Part shown: in pieces, positions 18,500-31,037 of the stretch
Position numbering within the stretch: the stretch's first letter is position 1
Layout: each line of letters starts with the position of its first letter
Assembly: GCA_009841255.1 (NCBI GenBank)
Contig: VXMD01000064.1
Coordinates: 1-57,274, forward strand
From: Candidatus Poribacteria bacterium
GTDB lineage: Bacteria; Poribacteria; WGA-4E; WGA-3G
DNA: 57,274 bases
Reading direction: 5' to 3'
Program-made: the position numbers and the translations under genes
Notes under the pieces: generated by a model
Databases searched by the model: none
What the model was told of the DNA's origin: nothing
The model's input: the letters and a program-made list of their open reading frames with translations, nothing else

Positions 18500-18612
18500 C
18501 CGTCGGCGCTCAGCCATCGGCATTGTCCCGCAAGCCTGCATACGGCTTGCGTGAAGAGCGTTCCGATGCACATCAGACATCTCTTGCTGAAAGCCGAAAG
18601 CCGAAGGCTGAT
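18500..18612 (+). repeat. Family A repeat supplying the start codon of the next gene
   Basis: GCCGTCGGCGCTCAGCCATC at the left, palindrome CGCAAGCC / GGCTTGCG in the middle, and GCTGAAAGCCGAAAGCCGAA followed by GGCTGATG at the right. The final ATG at 18611 is the best start for the downstream gene. Confidence 0.75.
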
Positions 18613-21600
18613 GGTTGTTCTTGTTTCTTTTTCTTTGTGTGTGCTACCACGTCTCGGTAGTCCAGCCCAAAACTCCCCTAACGACGAAACCAAAATCCTT
18701 GAACTTCCCACCTTTTCCGTCCTCCAGAAAACGGAGTCCGTTGAACTGAAAACAGGCGCGCAAGACTTTACGGTGAAGTACCCACCGATCCTTCCAAACA
18801 GCGAACGGATAACGAAAGCGGATGGAAAGGTGTTCGTACGGGGTATCGACTATCAGATCGATTTCTATTTAGGTAAAATCACTTTTGGTGAGCGAACAAC
18901 TACCGAGCCACCGACGGAGAAACTCTCCAGACTTAAGATAACCTACCGGACGCTACCCTTCGCGATTAAACAGGTTTATAAACGCGACCTTTACGGAACA
19001 GCAATCAGCGATCAGCAGTCAGCAGTCAGCAGTCAGCAGTCGGAAACCATCGGCAGTCAGCAAGGAGATCTTCTTACTGAAGATTTCCAACAGCCAACAC
19101 CCGACAACCAATTAGAGGTGTCTGGAAGTCAGACAGTCGGTATCTCAGTTGGCAGTGGACGCGGTGTGTCACCGAACCAAGAACTCCGCGTCAATGTGGA
19201 GGGGAAAGCCTCTGAAAATATCACCGTTCTTGCCCTGCTATCCGATCAGGATTTGCCTATTCAACCCGAAGGCACAACCGAAAATATTCAAGACATCGAT
19301 CAGAAATTGATTCGTATTACACATCCGAACATGAGGGGGACCTTAGGCGACTTTGAAGGATCGCTCGGTCCATCGGAATTTATTTTTTTTTCGCGCGCAT
19401 TAGAGGGGGTACAGGTTGAAGGCGATTTCAAGTGGGTGGACTTTCATTTCATTCCGACTGCTATTCCGAAGGGGCAGTCTACGAGTTTAGTCCTTCGCGG
19501 TGAGGAAGGACGCAGTGAATATCGGCTCACAGTTGATGGGCAATACGTCATTGTGAAAGCAGGTAGTGAAATCGTATGGCTGAACGGTGAGCGGATGCGG
19601 CGCGGGGAAAACAACGATTACATTATCCGTGAATATGGAGATCCAATTGTCGAGTTTAACAGTAAACACCTCATAACGAGCAACGACATGATTCGGATCG
19701 ACTTTGAATATATCCCGGAAGATCGGGCGTATCAACAGAATCTTTACGGACTCAGTAGCGTCTTCACGCTGCCGGGTGAACGTTTAACCTTTGGAGCATC
19801 CTATGCCGTTGAAGCAGATCTGAATCAACCCGAACAGACGTTAATCGAGTTTAAAGATGTAGAATTGGAGGCACTTCGCCAAAACATTCTTAATCCGAAG
19901 GAAGACGAATCACCGCTCATACCACCACAAAAGCATACCGTATGGGGACTGGAGAGTCGCCTGAACGTTACAGAACAGGCGTGGATTCAAGGTGAACTTG
20001 CTTATAGTAATCTTGATAAGAATACCTATTCCACTGTCGATCGGAAAGAGGTGAGTCGGGCATGGAAACTGATCGGCTACGCCGACTGGGACTTTGCGAC
20101 GTGGACCGACCACCTACACCCTAAACTGACCACAAATCTCGACATACGGTCAATGGATGCTGACTTTGTGCCTGTTGGTGCTTCAAGTAGTAACCGTACC
20201 CGTTCACGTTACGAAACACAATACGCCAAAGAGGGTTTTGATGATGCGTTCTTACTCGACACTGCAGGCAGATCACGAACTTCCCAAGACGAGAGAACCA
20301 TGGACTTCGACCTCCGAGTGATGCCAACGGATTGGTTAGCGGTTGACGCGGGAATCGGCAGGAGCGAAGAGAGGGACCCAGAACGCACGGAAACCGTCCA
20401 GGAGGCGACGGTGTCCAGCGGTGAAACAGAGGTTTTACCGACTGCCAATGCAACGATCCGCAACAATTTCAATTGGGGGGTCAACTTCAATCGCCAATCA
20501 GGTAGTGGACGGGTAAGTCCTACCCTCACGCGAGAAAGCACACTGCCTATAATTGGGCAAGAGAAGAATCCGGTAGAAGGGAATTCCGATTCCCGACAAG
20601 GCACATCTGCAAGCGCGCAACTCCTGAAAAGATTGCCGAATCTTCGTTGGGACGACTATCGTAGCAGTTCCCGGACGGAAGGGGTAGATTCAACGAGGAC
20701 ACAATCGCTACAGAAGTTTCGTCAAGAAGGGAATCTGTCGTATCCGCTCGGTCCGTTCAGGATTTTGGGAACACTGGGACGAGTGGAGTCGAACGAAACG
20801 CGTAATGCGACGCTCAATCGAAAGCGGAACCGCGCAACTGGACGTCTTGACCTCGCTGATTTCAAGTGGGCATCTTTAAACACCAGTTATGAGCTTGAGG
20901 AGGCTTTTGCGAAAGAACCGCTGCTGACTGTGGATGACGAGCCTATCGGCTTGTCGGATTGGCAACGCAACACCACGGCACGTACGTGGAAGGTAGGCAT
21001 TCTTTCACAGCAACAATCTTTTCTCAACGGAGGAGTAAATCTGACAGCAAACATTGCGCGTCGGATGTTGAAATCACACACTGATCTCGGTGCAGATACA
21101 ACCACACAACTTGCGGATGTTAACCTCCAACTCACACCCCTCAGTCGAGCAATTGATATAGAAATCGCCTATGAATTGGATAAAAAGCTGACGAGTCAAC
21201 GCCGCGAGGTTTATACCGACATCCATCCACACACGGGTGTTTTGCTCCAACCCGGCGAAGGATACTACGTGAAGTTAGACGATCTGCACTATGTAGAAGA
21301 TCCCGAGGAAGGTACCTATGTCAAGATTTATCAAAATGTGGGGGATAAACCGACAACAGCAGTAGATGCGGAATTCCGAGTCCGTTTTCAACCCCGCCAG
21401 TTTTTCGCACGGCGTGCCAGAGCAAGACAACAGCAGCAACGCGATTCAATGATGAAGCGCGACAGTTTACGCCCGAGTAGTCGTCAACAATCAGCGATCA
21501 GCGGTCAGCAAGCGGGCACTGTGGGAGACAAAACATCCACAACTGCCACACGGTCTACCGACAGCCAATTAGAGTGGTTTCTAAATGCCCTCCGAGGGCA

Positions 21601-22402
21601 AACACGGTTGTGGTTGACCGAAGAACAGGAGGTCGAGGATGCCGTATCCCTCTATCTACTCCAAAGTCTACAAGGCTCAGAAACGCTTTTCGGGCGCTTG
21701 AATCAGCACCATCGATTTGAATTTTCGCCCTCACCGGCATTCAGTTTCGAGTTCAACCTTCGTGCGGGCGAGACGCTCAATCGGCGGATTAATAACCAAG
21801 AACGCCACAGACGCCATCGGACGTATGATGTCGGTCTCTCGGTGAACCCAACGCGACGTATGTCCGTTGGTGTGAACTGGGAGCAACGCCGAGAAACTGA
21901 GAAATATAGTCAATTCCAAATTGAAGAGTTTACACAGGAAACCGAGACGATACCGAGCAGGGGAGAGCTTCCATCTACCCCTATCTCAGATTTGCGCCAA
22001 TTTGAACAGACGACTGAATTGAGCCTTCGATATGAACTGAGCAATTCTGTGCGCTGGAGCGGTATCGGCGGATATAAACGGACAACTGACGAAGAGCGTC
22101 TTGACGAGGAACCAGAAGCCAGAACGCGAACCTTTTTTTATGAAAATCGCGTCACGTATAGTCTCATCGGCAAGGGGCGCCTTGATGTGAACTACAAACT
22201 CGGCTACGGCGAGAGTCAGGGGGGTATCCCCTTTGCGCAATACACCTTCTATGAAGGCATCAGCCACGAAGTCCACACAACCGCAGACTACAGACTGCGA
22301 AGATTCACGGATTTGTTGTTTCGACTCAATTACCGTTTACTCTCCACGAAACAACGGAAACCCGAACACCGCCTGGAAATGACAGTCAGTGCCGAACTCT
22401 AA
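18611..22402 (+). CDS. Large exported beta-rich envelope protein, probably outer membrane
   Basis: 1,263 residues from ATG 18611, which begins a plausible signal peptide (MVVLVSFSLCVLPRLGSPA). The N-terminal half has short extracellular-type domains (F-V-R-G-I-D-Y-Q-I-D-F and T-L-G-D-F-E). The latter recalls SprA-like surface proteins of gliding bacteria, but I cannot establish homology. From ~residue 420 onward, alternating aromatic/charged strands of 10-14 residues predominate, with an extreme C-terminus of alternating residues (L-E-M-T-V-S-A-E-L), as in beta-barrels. Two in-frame family A inserts encode S/Q-rich loops (19000-19112 and 21480-21515). It converges with 22416 with a 13-nt gap. 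Confidence 0.7.
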   Translation: MVVLVSFSLCVLPRLGSPAQNSPNDETKILELPTFSVLQKTESVELKTGAQDFTVKYPPILPNSERITKADGKVFVRGIDYQIDFYLGKITFGERTTTEPPTEKLSRLKITYRTLPFAIKQVYKRDLYGTAISDQQSAVSSQQSETIGSQQGDLLTEDFQQPTPDNQLEVSGSQTVGISVGSGRGVSPNQELRVNVEGKASENITVLALLSDQDLPIQPEGTTENIQDIDQKLIRITHPNMRGTLGDFEGSLGPSEFIFFSRALEGVQVEGDFKWVDFHFIPTAIPKGQSTSLVLRGEEGRSEYRLTVDGQYVIVKAGSEIVWLNGERMRRGENNDYIIREYGDPIVEFNSKHLITSNDMIRIDFEYIPEDRAYQQNLYGLSSVFTLPGERLTFGASYAVEADLNQPEQTLIEFKDVELEALRQNILNPKEDESPLIPPQKHTVWGLESRLNVTEQAWIQGELAYSNLDKNTYSTVDRKEVSRAWKLIGYADWDFATWTDHLHPKLTTNLDIRSMDADFVPVGASSSNRTRSRYETQYAKEGFDDAFLLDTAGRSRTSQDERTMDFDLRVMPTDWLAVDAGIGRSEERDPERTETVQEATVSSGETEVLPTANATIRNNFNWGVNFNRQSGSGRVSPTLTRESTLPIIGQEKNPVEGNSDSRQGTSASAQLLKRLPNLRWDDYRSSSRTEGVDSTRTQSLQKFRQEGNLSYPLGPFRILGTLGRVESNETRNATLNRKRNRATGRLDLADFKWASLNTSYELEEAFAKEPLLTVDDEPIGLSDWQRNTTARTWKVGILSQQQSFLNGGVNLTANIARRMLKSHTDLGADTTTQLADVNLQLTPLSRAIDIEIAYELDKKLTSQRREVYTDIHPHTGVLLQPGEGYYVKLDDLHYVEDPEEGTYVKIYQNVGDKPTTAVDAEFRVRFQPRQFFARRARARQQQQRDSMMKRDSLRPSSRQQSAISGQQAGTVGDKTSTTATRSTDSQLEWFLNALRGQTRLWLTEEQEVEDAVSLYLLQSLQGSETLFGRLNQHHRFEFSPSPAFSFEFNLRAGETLNRRINNQERHRRHRTYDVGLSVNPTRRMSVGVNWEQRRETEKYSQFQIEEFTQETETIPSRGELPSTPISDLRQFEQTTELSLRYELSNSVRWSGIGGYKRTTDEERLDEEPEARTRTFFYENRVTYSLIGKGRLDVNYKLGYGESQGGIPFAQYTFYEGISHEVHTTADYRLRRFTDLLFRLNYRLLSTKQRKPEHRLEMTVSAEL
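19000..19112 (+). repeat. Family A repeat in frame inside the 1,263-residue protein, copy 1
   Basis: Four tandem CAGCAGT units (GATCAGCAGTCAGCAGTCAG) followed by a degenerate right arm. Encodes D-Q-Q-S-A-V-S-S-Q-Q-S-E-T. Confidence 0.8.
21480..21560 (+). repeat. Family A repeat in frame inside the 1,263-residue protein, copy 2
   Basis: CAACAATCAGCGATCAGCGG then TCAGCAAGCGG, with a right arm around CTACCGACAGCC. Encodes R-Q-Q-S-A-I-S-G-Q-Q. Confidence 0.7.
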
Positions 22403-24488: not shown

Positions 24489-25817
24489 TCACAACGCCGC
24501 GTCTATAGAGATTTTCGCCAGAAAAGAATTGACCTTTCCTTTTCCGCTGAACGAATTACCGGTCGCTCCTAACTTAAAATGTGTGCCTTTGTCAAAACGG
24601 TGCGTGATTCTCCCCGACTTACCGGGTACAATCCCTGATGCTGAGGTGAGTATAACCTCAGGTATACCACCTGTTGGATGTTCACTATCGCTTGCAAACA
24701 GAATGAACGCGCCGGCTGCCTCGGCACTCCCAATCCAGAGATCGATCATGAGCAAACCCCCGTCTTTAAACGCCGTTGCATCAATTTCAACAACAGTGTA
24801 ATCTTGATAATCAGTCGTCGGTGTTCGGAAAATGCTCAAGACTTCCTGTAAAGGTTCTTCATCGCTCAATATAACATGTTTTGCCTGTGTGGAGAGAAGC
24901 CTCGGTACGTATTCGGTTTGATCAGCATTCGGCGCAAATCCATCACCTTTACTCGGTGTCATAGATTTACCGATTTGCGTCCGCACATCCGGTTTTGACG
25001 CAATATCCAGGACAGTAGGCGTGTCAATGAGTTCCACTGTCATTTCGGATGAGGCATCAAGGTCATAAGGCTGTTGGATACGTGCTAAGTATTGGCTATT
25101 TGCCCCAAATGCCATTACAACGAGGACAAGGGTTGAGGCAGCGAGTGCCCACGGCACGAACGGCTTACCGTTGGATGGTGGCGTAGGTTGGATACGAGAA
25201 ATCTCTTGCATGATATTCTCGGTAAGGTTTGCCCTAATTTGGAAACCCTCCAACGCCTCTCGGATCATGGGTTCTGCCTTCTTTAAGCGGTGCCGCGCGC
25301 GACGGAGTCGGCTCTTAACGGTACTTGCCGATACCCCTAGAAATCGGCTAATCTCTTCGCAGGTCATCTCTCCAAAGTAGTGGAGTGTAACGACAGTGCG
25401 CTCACTTTCCCGCAACCGGGCAAGCAATCTTTGAACGATATCGCGCTGTGCATCAGTAGCGGCTTTCGCCCGCTCTTCGGCAATGTATTGAGAATATGTC
25501 GTGCCTTCTATGAGCTTGATGTCTGTATCTTCTAAGGATTGCGTCTGCATCCGTTTTTTTCTGAGCCACGCGTGGCATTGGCGTGCAGCAATTCTATAAA
25601 GCCATCCCGCAAAACGATTCGGATCCTTGAGCGTCGATAGTTTTTTATAGACCCTCAGGAAGGTATCCTGCGTAATCTCTTCAGCGATGTGAAAATCCCC
25701 GACTTTCCGCCACGCAAGCGCGTGGACCTGCTTTTGGTATTTTCTTACCAATTTTGCGAAAGCATTTTCATCGCCTGTGAGACTGCGTTGAATTAGGTCT
25801 ACATCGTTGTTCTTCAT
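24489..25817 (-). CDS. Membrane-anchored ECF sigma factor with an extracytoplasmic C-terminal domain shared with two neighbouring selenoproteins
   Basis: 442 residues; GGAGG precedes the ATG. Sigma region 2 spans ~7-75 (E-E-I-T-Q-D-T-F-L-R-V-Y and F-A-G-W-L-Y-R-I-A). Region 4 spans ~125-180 (EISRFLGVSASTVKSRLRRA). A single TM segment at ~221-238 (WALAASTLVLVVMAFG) follows. After a linker, residues ~328-440 form a domain beginning L-S-I-F-R-T-P and containing Y-Q-D-Y-T-V-V-E-I-D-A-T-A-F and F-K-L-G-A-T-G-N. The same domain ends the selenoprotein genes at 25954 and 29382. The fusion implies signalling across the membrane by the sigma factor itself. No separate anti-sigma gene is adjacent. Confidence 0.92.
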   Translation of the reverse strand: MKNNDVDLIQRSLTGDENAFAKLVRKYQKQVHALAWRKVGDFHIAEEITQDTFLRVYKKLSTLKDPNRFAGWLYRIAARQCHAWLRKKRMQTQSLEDTDIKLIEGTTYSQYIAEERAKAATDAQRDIVQRLLARLRESERTVVTLHYFGEMTCEEISRFLGVSASTVKSRLRRARHRLKKAEPMIREALEGFQIRANLTENIMQEISRIQPTPPSNGKPFVPWALAASTLVLVVMAFGANSQYLARIQQPYDLDASSEMTVELIDTPTVLDIASKPDVRTQIGKSMTPSKGDGFAPNADQTEYVPRLLSTQAKHVILSDEEPLQEVLSIFRTPTTDYQDYTVVEIDATAFKDGGLLMIDLWIGSAEAAGAFILFASDSEHPTGGIPEVILTSASGIVPGKSGRITHRFDKGTHFKLGATGNSFSGKGKVNSFLAKISIDAAL

Positions 25818-25953: not shown

Positions 25954-27954
25954 TCACTCGACTTCATAAATGAGCCACATGCCTTCTACTTTTCGCATCT
26001 TAGCGGATACTTCCGGGGGAGCACCCCCAGGTACTCTCAACCGGAAGTGAAATTCATCACCCACATATTCGCTGCTCAAAATCTTTATATGACTCAGTAT
26101 TTGACTGATCTGAGCACGCACATCCTCCGGCATGCCCTCAAAATCGCTTTCAAATGTTCCCTTGGCACTCCCTGTAACCATCGAAAGCACTCCTTCTGAG
26201 TCAAGATTCTTAAACGCCTTCACGAAGGCGTTCATTGTATCTTCCGCAGATTGTTCAGGGCGCGGTGATGACACTTTTCCGGTCTCTGCTTCCTGATGAG
26301 GTTCAACAGAGATTTTTGCCCAAAAAGCGTTGACGCTCCCTTTTTGGCTGAACCGGCTGCCAGTACCTCCCAACTTAAAAATTTTACCCCGGTTGAAACG
26401 ATATTTGATTGTTCCTCTTTTACCGGGCGGAACGTCCCATGCAGAAGCAAGTGCTCTGTGAGGCATACCCTGTGTTGGGAGTTCGGTGTCGTCATCATAA
26501 AGATCAAACGATCCCTTGGGTTCAGCATTCCCTACCAGAATATCAATAGTAAGCAGACCGCCGCTTTTAAACGCTGTTGTATCGATTTCAATGACAGTAT
26601 AGTCTTGCAATCCGTTTCCTGGTGCTCGAAAAATGTTGAGGACCTCCCGCTTCGGTCTTTCGCTGGTGAGTTTAACATTCGAATCCTTTGATACAGCGTC
26701 TAATTCAGGAAGAGACTCTGAATCAGGTTCTAATGAAGGTTTCGCGGTCTCCTCCCGAAATCCGGGAAGTTTTCCATCTAAGGCTTCCGTGAGAAATAAA
26801 AGGTACCCGTTAGCACCGTTGTAAGGTGATGTGCGTTCATTGACGGGGAGTCTACCCAGGAGTTCAAATTCCGTTGATAGCACCAAGGAATCTGCGGGTG
26901 AGTATTTCTTCCAGCCTTTCATGATTGCTTGTGCTAAGGCGTGGGTTGTATCAAATGCCTTGGATTCACGCTCGCGTCTTTTAGCAATGGGTTCCCGCAA
27001 ACTCGGGACACGTCCTAATTCGGAATTGGGGACCCATGTATTGATGAAATTTTCATTCAAGAACACTATAATTTGATCGTCGGAGAGGACACCTGCCCTC
27101 AAGGATTTGCCGCTCCCTCAGCACGCCTCATCAGCAAGCGGTCCATCTATTGAGATGACGTGAATCGGTTTTTGCTGTGCAGGTCCCATTACCAATGCTT
27201 CCTCCAATGAAACCCAGTTGATTTGCTGCGATTTGTAGAAACGCAATACCATCTTGCGTTCAGCCGCTTCCTGTGTAATCGATGCTGCAAACTCGATGTC
27301 TGGGGCAATCTCTCTGACCTCAGCACGAAGTTCTATTTGCGGACAAAAACCGACATCTATGGTTCTGGTACTGTTTCGACCAACATCGAAATTCAGTACA
27401 CCTTCAGGAACGTACATCTTGAAAGAAGCAACCTTTTCCTTAATTCGATCAATGACAAGATGCCCGGTGAATTGAGACGGCGTAAATCGACCATCTGCTA
27501 AGATGAATTCTGCATGGATACGGAACACGATTTCAGCATATTTATCATTATAGGCGCGCAGGCATGCCCACAAACCATAGGAATCCCCCGCATTCATAAT
27601 AATATCCAGATTTGGCTTAGGGTGGAGTTGTCGCAGTAATTCCAGCACACCCTCTTCTTCTTCGATCTTCCAGAGATCACCAACAGAAACCGCTGTAGGC
27701 GGGAGGAACGCACGGAAAACCGATGTCGGATACCGCTTCTCCGACTCAGCGACTTGCAGATTTGCCAGTTCATCCCACTCTACATGAAAGCCATATTGTG
27801 TATATTCAATCGGTGCGATGAAACCTTTTACTAACACTTCCGCTATCCCATCAAGGTTTAGTGCAATTTTGTTGTCAGTTGTCGGGTGGTTGTCGGCATT
27901 CAGTTGTCCGCTCATCGCAACCAGCATAAGAAATCCGATCGTTAGGATTTTCAT
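25954..27954 (-). CDS. Exported selenoprotein, Cys-Sec thioredoxin-like, copy 1 (TGA at 27118-27120 read as Sec)
   Basis: 666 residues with Sec279. ATG 27954 follows GGAGAATTAAAA and starts a signal peptide (M-K-I-L-T-I-G-F-L-M-L-V-A-M). Residues ~25-270 form an unrecognised domain (L-L-R-Q-L-H-P and R-A-Y-N-D-K-Y-A-E-I-V-F-R-I-H). Then D-G-P-L-A-D-E-A-C-U-G-S-G-K-S-L-R-A runs into V-L-S-D...F-L-N-E-N-F-I-N-T-W, a thioredoxin-like pattern with C-U-G-S in place of CxxC. Next comes the ~110-residue domain shared with the ECF sigma factor, then a ~95-residue NTF2/DUF4878-like end. Downstream of the TGA the frame has no ATG or ribosome binding site. The gene's true stop is also TGA, so the code is not reassigned. 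Copy 2 at 29382 conserves everything around the TGA. Confidence 0.85.
27085..27120 (-). promoter_or_regulatory. Putative bacterial SECIS hairpin, selenoprotein copy 1
   Basis: Exactly 17 nt after the TGA, GAGGG-CAGGTG-TCCTC forms a 5-bp stem (one G-U) with a six-base loop containing GGU. Distance and the small G/U-containing apical loop match what is known of bacterial SECIS elements bound by SelB. The same hairpin is at 30156 in copy 2. Confidence 0.7.
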
Positions 27955-29381: not shown

Positions 29382-31037
29382 CTATTCCAATGCTTGATTC
29401 GGTTCAACAGAGATTTTCGCCACGAAAGCGTTGACTTGCCCTTTCTTACCAAACCAATCACCAGTAGCCCCTAATTTAAAGTGCTGCCCTCGATCGAAAA
29501 GATGGGTGATTCTCTCTGTTCCACCGGGTGGAACTCCCCACGCCGAGACAATCGCGTTCCGCGGTGCGCCTTCTGTTGGGAGTTCGGCATCACCATGAAA
29601 CAGGTCGAACGAACCGGCAGCCTCGGCATGTCCGACGGAGATATCAATCGTGAGTACACCACCATTTTCAAACGTCGTCGCATCAATTTCAATAACTGTA
29701 TAATCTTGATAACCGGGTTCTGGTGTCCGAAAGATATTAAGGATCTCCTGTGAGGTCCGAACATCGTTGAGTACAACTTTCAAACTGTTCAAGACAGTAT
29801 CCGAATTGAGCGGTTCTGAAGTATCTTCACCGAATCCAGGTAGTTTTCCATCTAAGGATTCTTTGAGAAACGTTAGGTAACGTTGGCCCATATTTGTTCC
29901 GATAAGATCATTGACGGATTGTCTTCCCATCAATTCAAGATCCGGCGAGAGGATCAAAGAATCCGATGGTGAACGCTCCTTCCAACCTTTCATGATTGCC
30001 TGTGCCAACGGGTGCATTTTGTCGAATGGCTTGAACCCATGCTCGCGGCGCACTGCCATATATACTTTCTTATTAGGTGTGCGTTCCAATTCAAAATTCG
30101 ACACCCAAGTGTTGATGAAATTTTCGTTCAAGAACTCAATATTTCGGTTATCAGAGAGGACAACTGCCCTCAGGGTTTTGCCGCTCCCTCAGCACGATTC
30201 ATCCATCAACGGTCCATCGATGGAAATGGCGTGAATCGGCTTCTGCTGTGTTTGTGCCATTTCCAATACTTGATCCGACGGCACCCAATTAATCTGTTGT
30301 GACTTGTAGAAACGCAGTGTTAGGGCGTGCTCAGCGGCTTCTTGAGGAATGGATTCTGTGAATTCAACGTTTTCCAGAGGATCTTGTATGCCCGCACGAA
30401 GTTCCATTTGGCAAAAACCGCCTGCTACAACAGAATAACTTGCGTCTTTGTCCTTCTTCCAGTTAACATCAAAGTTTATGGGACCATCAGGGACGTACAT
30501 CTCAAAGAAAACAACCTTCTCCTCGATCCGATCGATCACAAGATGCCCAGCAAACTGAGATGGAGTAAACCAGCCGTCTTCCAACTTGAACTCTGCATGA
30601 ATCCGAAATACGATGTCTGCGAATTTATCGTTGTAAGCGCGTAGGCATGCCCACAACCCGCGAGAATCCCCTACATTTATATGCATATCCAAACTTGGAT
30701 TAGGGTGCAGCTGCCGGAGCAAAGTGAGTGCTCCTTTCTCTTCGACCTTCCAGGGTTCACCAATTGAAACTGGTTCGTCTGGAAGAAAAGTGTGGAAGAC
30801 CGATGCAGGATACCGCTTCTCCGGTGTAGCAGCGCGCAGATTCATCAAGGTATCCCACTCCTTAAAAGAGGTTTCGGACAAATTCTCCTCGATAGGCGCG
30901 ATGAAGCCTTTGACTAACACTTCAGATGCACCATCAAGATTAAGTGTAATTTTTTTGTTCTGTGTCAAGTCCGCATTAGCGTTTAATTGTCCGGTTATCA
31001 CAACCAGAATGAGAAATCCAATCGTTAGAGTTTTCAT
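29382..31037 (-). CDS. Exported selenoprotein, Cys-Sec thioredoxin-like, copy 2 (TGA at 30189-30191 read as Sec)
   Basis: 551 residues with Sec283. ATG 31037 follows ACAGGAGAATTAAAA; signal peptide M-K-T-L-T-I-G-F-L-I-L-V-V-I-T-G. Same architecture as copy 1 up to the shared domain: an N-terminal domain (L-L-R-Q-L-H-P, A-Y-N-D-K-F-A-D-I-V-F-R-I-H), then D-G-P-L-M-D-E-S-C-U-G-S-G-K-T-L-R-A and F-L-N-E-N-F-I-N-T-W. The C-terminal domain (Y-Q-D-Y-T-V-I-E-I-D-A-T-T-F to A-K-I-S-V-E-P) matches the ECF sigma tail more closely than copy 1 does. It lacks the extra NTF2-like end. A decayed gene is unlikely because the sequence after the TGA is as conserved between copies as that before it. Confidence 0.85.
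30156..30191 (-). promoter_or_regulatory. Putative bacterial SECIS hairpin, selenoprotein copy 2
   Basis: GAGGG-CAGTTG-TCCTC, again starting 17 nt after the TGA. Stem bases are identical to copy 1; only one loop base differs. Confidence 0.7.

Follow-up and report, generated by a model that had tools for sequence, protein, structure and literature searches.

Our study found two SelN-like putative selenoprotein genes and the gene of an extracytoplasmic function (ECF) sigma factor on the minus strand of the window, by which we mean the whole stretch of Poribacteria DNA that was analysed (57 274 nucleotides). The gene under study, copy 2, is crossed by a single in-frame TGA. The features, in window coordinates, are as follows.

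24489-25817, minus strand: ECF sigma factor (Pfam Sigma70_r2 and r4) with one transmembrane segment predicted from hydrophobicity (residues 220-238) and, at its C-terminus, the domain that the SelN-like proteins carry
25954-27954, minus strand: SelN-like putative selenoprotein copy 1, 666 residues, with a TGA stop at its end
27118-27120, minus strand: putative selenocysteine (Sec) codon of copy 1, also TGC-TGA, with a SECIS hairpin at 27085-27100
29382-31037, minus strand: SelN-like putative selenoprotein gene copy 2, a one-TGA frame of 551 residues with Sec at 283
29400-29789, minus strand: C-terminal beta-sandwich of copy 2 (residues 417-546), PliG-like or collagen-binding-domain-like by VIA-align, common to the sigma factor
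29847-30299, minus strand: thioredoxin-fold domain of copy 2 (residues 247-397) with SCUG, by VIA-align
30156-30171, minus strand: bSECIS hairpin GAGGGC-AGTT-GTCCTC of copy 2, alignment columns 21-36 from the first UGA base, supported by pairing, covariation and codon constraint
30189-30191, minus strand: putative Sec codon UGA of copy 2, beside TGC (Cys282-Sec283), with TGA kept at the distinct related sites gathered
30300-30959, minus strand: N-terminal SelN domain of copy 2 (residues 27-246) with FRIHAEF...FTPSQF.GH, by alignment to human SELENON
30972-31037, minus strand: predicted signal peptide of copy 2 (about residues 1-22, hydrophobic LTIGFLILVVITGQL), by hydrophobicity scan, an N-terminal helix of low confidence in the model

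Copy 2 starts at an ATG at 31037, preceded by AGGAG, and stops at a TAG at 29382-29384, so that translation gives 551 codons when the TGA is counted as a residue. This confirmed the first-pass annotation, which had described the TGA at 30189-30191 as breaking an otherwise continuous frame. The TGA lies in the context TGC-TGA-GGG, and the protein around it reads D-E-S-C-U-G-S-G-K-T-L-R-A. Copy 1 is 61 % identical to copy 2 and carries an extra C-terminal tail of ~115 residues (25954-26300, minus strand) that found no convincing Pfam match. Elsewhere in the window, an open frame of 1283 residues (18551-22402, plus strand) had no Pfam match either. All seven loci of the source genome that cover the Sec site keep the TGA. 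Beside one SelN-like copy, separate frames with an N-terminal piece and a piece of the C-terminal domain (G000:C32:33858-34466) are perhaps a decaying paralogue.

The source genome carries the genes needed to read UGA as Sec. All four of selA, selB, selC and selD, which the first-pass annotation had proposed to look for, were found, with a tRNA-Sec (78.1 bits, TCA anticodon) that adjoins selB, selA at 596 bits and selD at 361 bits. The main objection foreseen in that annotation, a genome lacking selB or selC, is removed by this complete machinery. The selD gene (L048, G000:C31:125360-126283) has an in-frame TGA of its own, in KCAG-U-ASK, so the selenophosphate synthetase is probably a selenoprotein too. 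Downstream of the UGA, the consensus hairpin GAGGGC-loop-GTCCTC formed all six pairs in 75 of 78 distinct sites when two registers were allowed, compared to 0-13 % full pairing at other positions of the same sequences, and pairs 24-33 and 25-32 covary. The codons within this stretch are constrained, as Arg at UGA+7 is AGG or AGA in 77/77 sites, compared to an AGR share of 22 % at other Arg positions, and CTC encodes the Leu at UGA+11 in 77/78, compared to 16 % at other Leu positions. The apical loop is AGGU, AGUU or GGGU in 77 of the 78 sites and ACGU in one, and a G falls within its first two positions in 77/78. A G early in the apical loop is a feature of bacterial SECIS elements. With these parts observed, SelB, tRNA-Sec and the hairpin would decode the UGA as Sec, an incorporation that we infer.

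Selection was compared on the two sides of the TGA in five orthologous pairs, and dN/dS was 0.13-0.25 before it and 0.15-0.24 after it, so selection at the protein level is similar for the two halves. A chance origin of the TGA is excluded by these low values on both sides together with the retention of the TGA across loci of the genome and the phylum. A real stop, whether from a pseudogene, a frameshift artefact or two separate genes, has a negligible probability: a few copies in the phylum do have an additional TAG or TAA in the matched stretch, and decayed or rearranged copies may exist, but nearly all copies seen retain the TGA, dN/dS is low on both sides and, as first annotated, the 120 codons that follow the TGA contain no start codon that has a Shine-Dalgarno-like sequence, so that the halves do not appear as separate genes with their own starts. 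Reading of the TGA as another amino acid, through an altered code or unspecific read-through, is only slightly less improbable. Gly occupies the site in one copy from another genome, as such a reading might allow, but the full Sec machinery, the conserved hairpin with its codon constraint and the TGA stop that ends copy 1 all argue against it. Copy 2 is thus very probably a genuine selenocysteine gene.

The family was present in 65 of 85 Poribacteria genomes, with up to 18 matches per genome and about 450 in all when the table is summed with fragments included. The TGA was found in all 19 loci from other Poribacteria, in which Cys-Sec is kept, and, with very few exceptions, among the family matches listed across the phylum. 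Homologues with Cys or UGA at the site had been suggested as a check in the first-pass annotation, and nearly all have TGA, with one GGA. This GGA (Gly) stands for the Sec TGA in a SelN-like copy of genome G061 (L090, around 2086), which has SelB and in which no tRNA-Sec was found. A natural loss of Sec decoding was not concluded for G061, as SelB and other TGA copies are still present. In total, tRNA-Sec was not found in seven family-bearing genomes, four of which have SelB, and it was found in 15 of 20 Poribacteria genomes that lack the family, so the presence of tRNA-Sec alone is not specific to the family. Five loci (L022, L087, L088, L101 and L105) belong to a subfamily that is more divergent and reads DDESC-U-ANGK; one of them, L022, keeps a Trp equivalent to human W453 and may therefore be nearer to the animal form. 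Outside the phylum, the family had no match in the 302 related genomes scanned, which are a sample of relatives rather than of all bacteria. A contig scan with close-relative patterns returned Poribacteria only, and no member was found in viral contigs.

Selenoprotein N is an animal protein, the loss of which causes human muscle disease. Judged from its sequence, the core of the bacterial protein (residues about 40-400), SCUG motif included, and animal selenoprotein N (SELENON/SEPN1) are homologues. A family HMM built from 36 Poribacteria copies scored 186.7 bits (E 6.8e-56) against a human SELENON sequence that was reconstructed, after the query had been seen, and checked at seven published positions; among 2000 shuffles the highest score was 3.7 bits. 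Of the 333 residues aligned to the reconstructed sequence, 32 % were identical, and in the stretch of 61 residues around SCUG 43 % were; the homologous part stops at the human C-terminus. The reconstructed letters agree with the published residues D80, M85 and Y86 (PMC7474598) and R291, H389, Sec462 and R466 (PMC8967691), and with the SCUG motif of SelN (PMC12839072). They disagree with the published C108, which falls in a stretch outside the matched part. R291, a published patient position, is conserved in the bacterial sequences compared, and R466 is Lys there. G273, H293, G315, N340, C461 and R469, which we take to be patient positions of human SelN, are likewise unchanged in these bacterial sequences.

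It is very unlikely that the family has no relation to SELENON and acquired SCUG independently on its thioredoxin fold. Such motifs can arise in other settings, as GCUG in thioredoxin reductases demonstrates, and the human sequence was a reconstructed one rather than a database entry. However, the similarity runs over about 330 residues and both domains to the human C-terminus, at 187 bits compared to at most 4 for shuffled sequences, and it takes in the published patient position R291 and the further patient positions H293, G315, N340 and R469. The first-pass annotation of an exported selenoprotein with a CU thioredoxin-like domain stands, whereas its novel domain and undescribed architecture give way to the two-domain core of animal selenoprotein N. 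It had also called the protein unrecognised, and full proteins indeed gave no match beyond chance in Pfam or NCBIfam, with weak matches to Pfam Thioredox_DsbH (PF03190) in a few members (best E 0.0045).

AlphaFold2 on 31 aligned sequences gave a model with a mean pLDDT of 79.9, in which the loop just before Sec is of low confidence. By VIA-align, residues 247-397 of this predicted model matched DsbH at Z 13.9 (2.9 Å over 125 residues), AGR3 and AGR2 at Z about 11.9-11.5 and DsbD gamma at Z about 10. Residues 417-546 were modelled as a beta-sandwich that matched PliG at Z 10.7 and collagenase collagen-binding domains at Z 9-10, again by VIA-align on the predicted model. The N-terminal domain alone was predicted at pLDDT 85; its best Foldseek match had E 0.067 and, at Z ≤5.6, outer-membrane barrels were the candidates, so no fold was assigned. 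A sequence search of the PDB found no SelN relative.

In the source genome, the C-terminal domain was seen only in SelN-like copies or fragments and in one sigma factor, which bears out the initial observation that it is common to copy 2 and the neighbouring sigma factor. In the sigma factor this domain is predicted to lie outside, a topology derived from one hydrophobic segment. Such a sigma gene comes after the SelN-like genes, in the same orientation, in 12 of 19 related loci as well as in the window, and genes for PD40 beta-propeller and LamG-like proteins are frequent neighbours.

Taken together, we hold with good confidence that copy 2 encodes a bacterial SelN homologue, an exported Cys-Sec protein that is most likely a selenol/thiol reductase or isomerase and is possibly coupled to the sigma factor. 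The signal peptide would place the protein outside the cytoplasm, and the motif and fold suggest that it acts on envelope disulfides. By the sequence pattern, Sec would sit at the start of the active-site helix, in the position of the nucleophilic Cys of CxxC, and attack substrate disulfides, and the adjacent Cys282 may resolve it as a Cys-Sec selenenylsulfide. It is probable that the redox proteins bind the same ligand as the sigma factor or make contact with it, with expression tuned to envelope redox stress, as the exclusive sharing of the domain and the synteny suggest. The coupling through the shared domain is our hypothesis, drawn from these two lines of evidence.

The same protein might instead serve as a dedicated redox sensor of the sigma factor, or as a repair enzyme for peroxides or oxidized surface proteins, rather than as a general disulfide reductase. 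We consider this less likely, although it is by far the best placed of the alternatives. The domain and synteny shared with a membrane-tethered ECF sigma factor would fit a sensor or repair role, as would the up to 18 matches per genome, which suggest many clients. However, at several loci, some of them on short contigs, no such sigma gene was seen, and the closest folds, DsbH, AGR2/AGR3 and DsbD gamma, are those of thiol/disulfide proteins.

A bacterial SelN was absent from the SelN reviews and bacterial selenoprotein catalogues searched, and no paper naming both Poribacteria and selenoproteins was found in the literature searched; subscription papers lay mostly outside this search, and an earlier report is possible. 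A 2026 catalogue does not name the family (PMC13188914), and a 2020 analysis placed SelN among the components accreted at the base of the metazoans (PMC7016017). One Sec SelN is present in the sponge Amphimedon (PMC3473315), which raises the question of gene transfer. Our tree, with one reconstructed human sequence, is unrooted, and the direction of transfer cannot be read from it. Poribacteria are known sponge symbionts. We tentatively suggest that the SelN core passed between bacteria and early animals, among which sponges are hosts of Poribacteria, and that in bacteria its multiple copies serve as a redox system of the envelope, connected to a membrane-tethered sigma factor by the outer domain common to both. 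If true, this would be a bacterial circuit that leads from redox state to transcription, and its basis would be a protein so far regarded as part of animal calcium and muscle biology. With a soluble bacterial relative that has neither anchor nor EF-hand, the structure and enzymology of the SelN core could be studied directly, and residues altered in patients could be tested in it. The family also adds to the bacterial selenoproteins, and is missing from Pfam and NCBIfam.

In comparison with animal SELENON, the bacterial form shares the N-terminal domain with FRIHAEF...F.P.QF.GH, the thioredoxin-fold domain with SCUGSG[KR].LR and LNE.FI.TW, the C-terminal boundary of the homologous part and a predicted targeting outside the cytosol. 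Unlike the animal protein, it has no EF-hand (the alignment has a gap over this region and Pfam detects none) and no type II ER membrane anchor, in place of which hydrophobicity indicates a signal-peptide-like N-terminal segment only, so calcium sensing would not be carried over. An ER is absent from bacteria in any case. It further differs in its extra C-terminal beta-sandwich, its multiple copies and a bacterial SECIS within the coding region. What is new is the occurrence in a bacterium, the lack of an EF-hand, the further domain at the C-terminus and the connection to a sigma factor. DsbH and AGR2/AGR3 are the closest solved folds of the Sec domain, which differs from them in showing only 11-16 % identity, in having CU for CxxC and in its fusion to the SelN N-terminal domain. 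The C-terminal domain has its beta-sandwich fold in common with PliG and the collagenase collagen-binding (PPC-type) domains, at 6-15 % identity. The neighbouring sigma factor resembles ECF sigma factors with membrane-spanning C-terminal extensions in combining Sigma-70 regions 2 and 4, one transmembrane segment and a further domain, but differs from them in that this further domain, which belongs to no Pfam family, is that of the SelN-like proteins.
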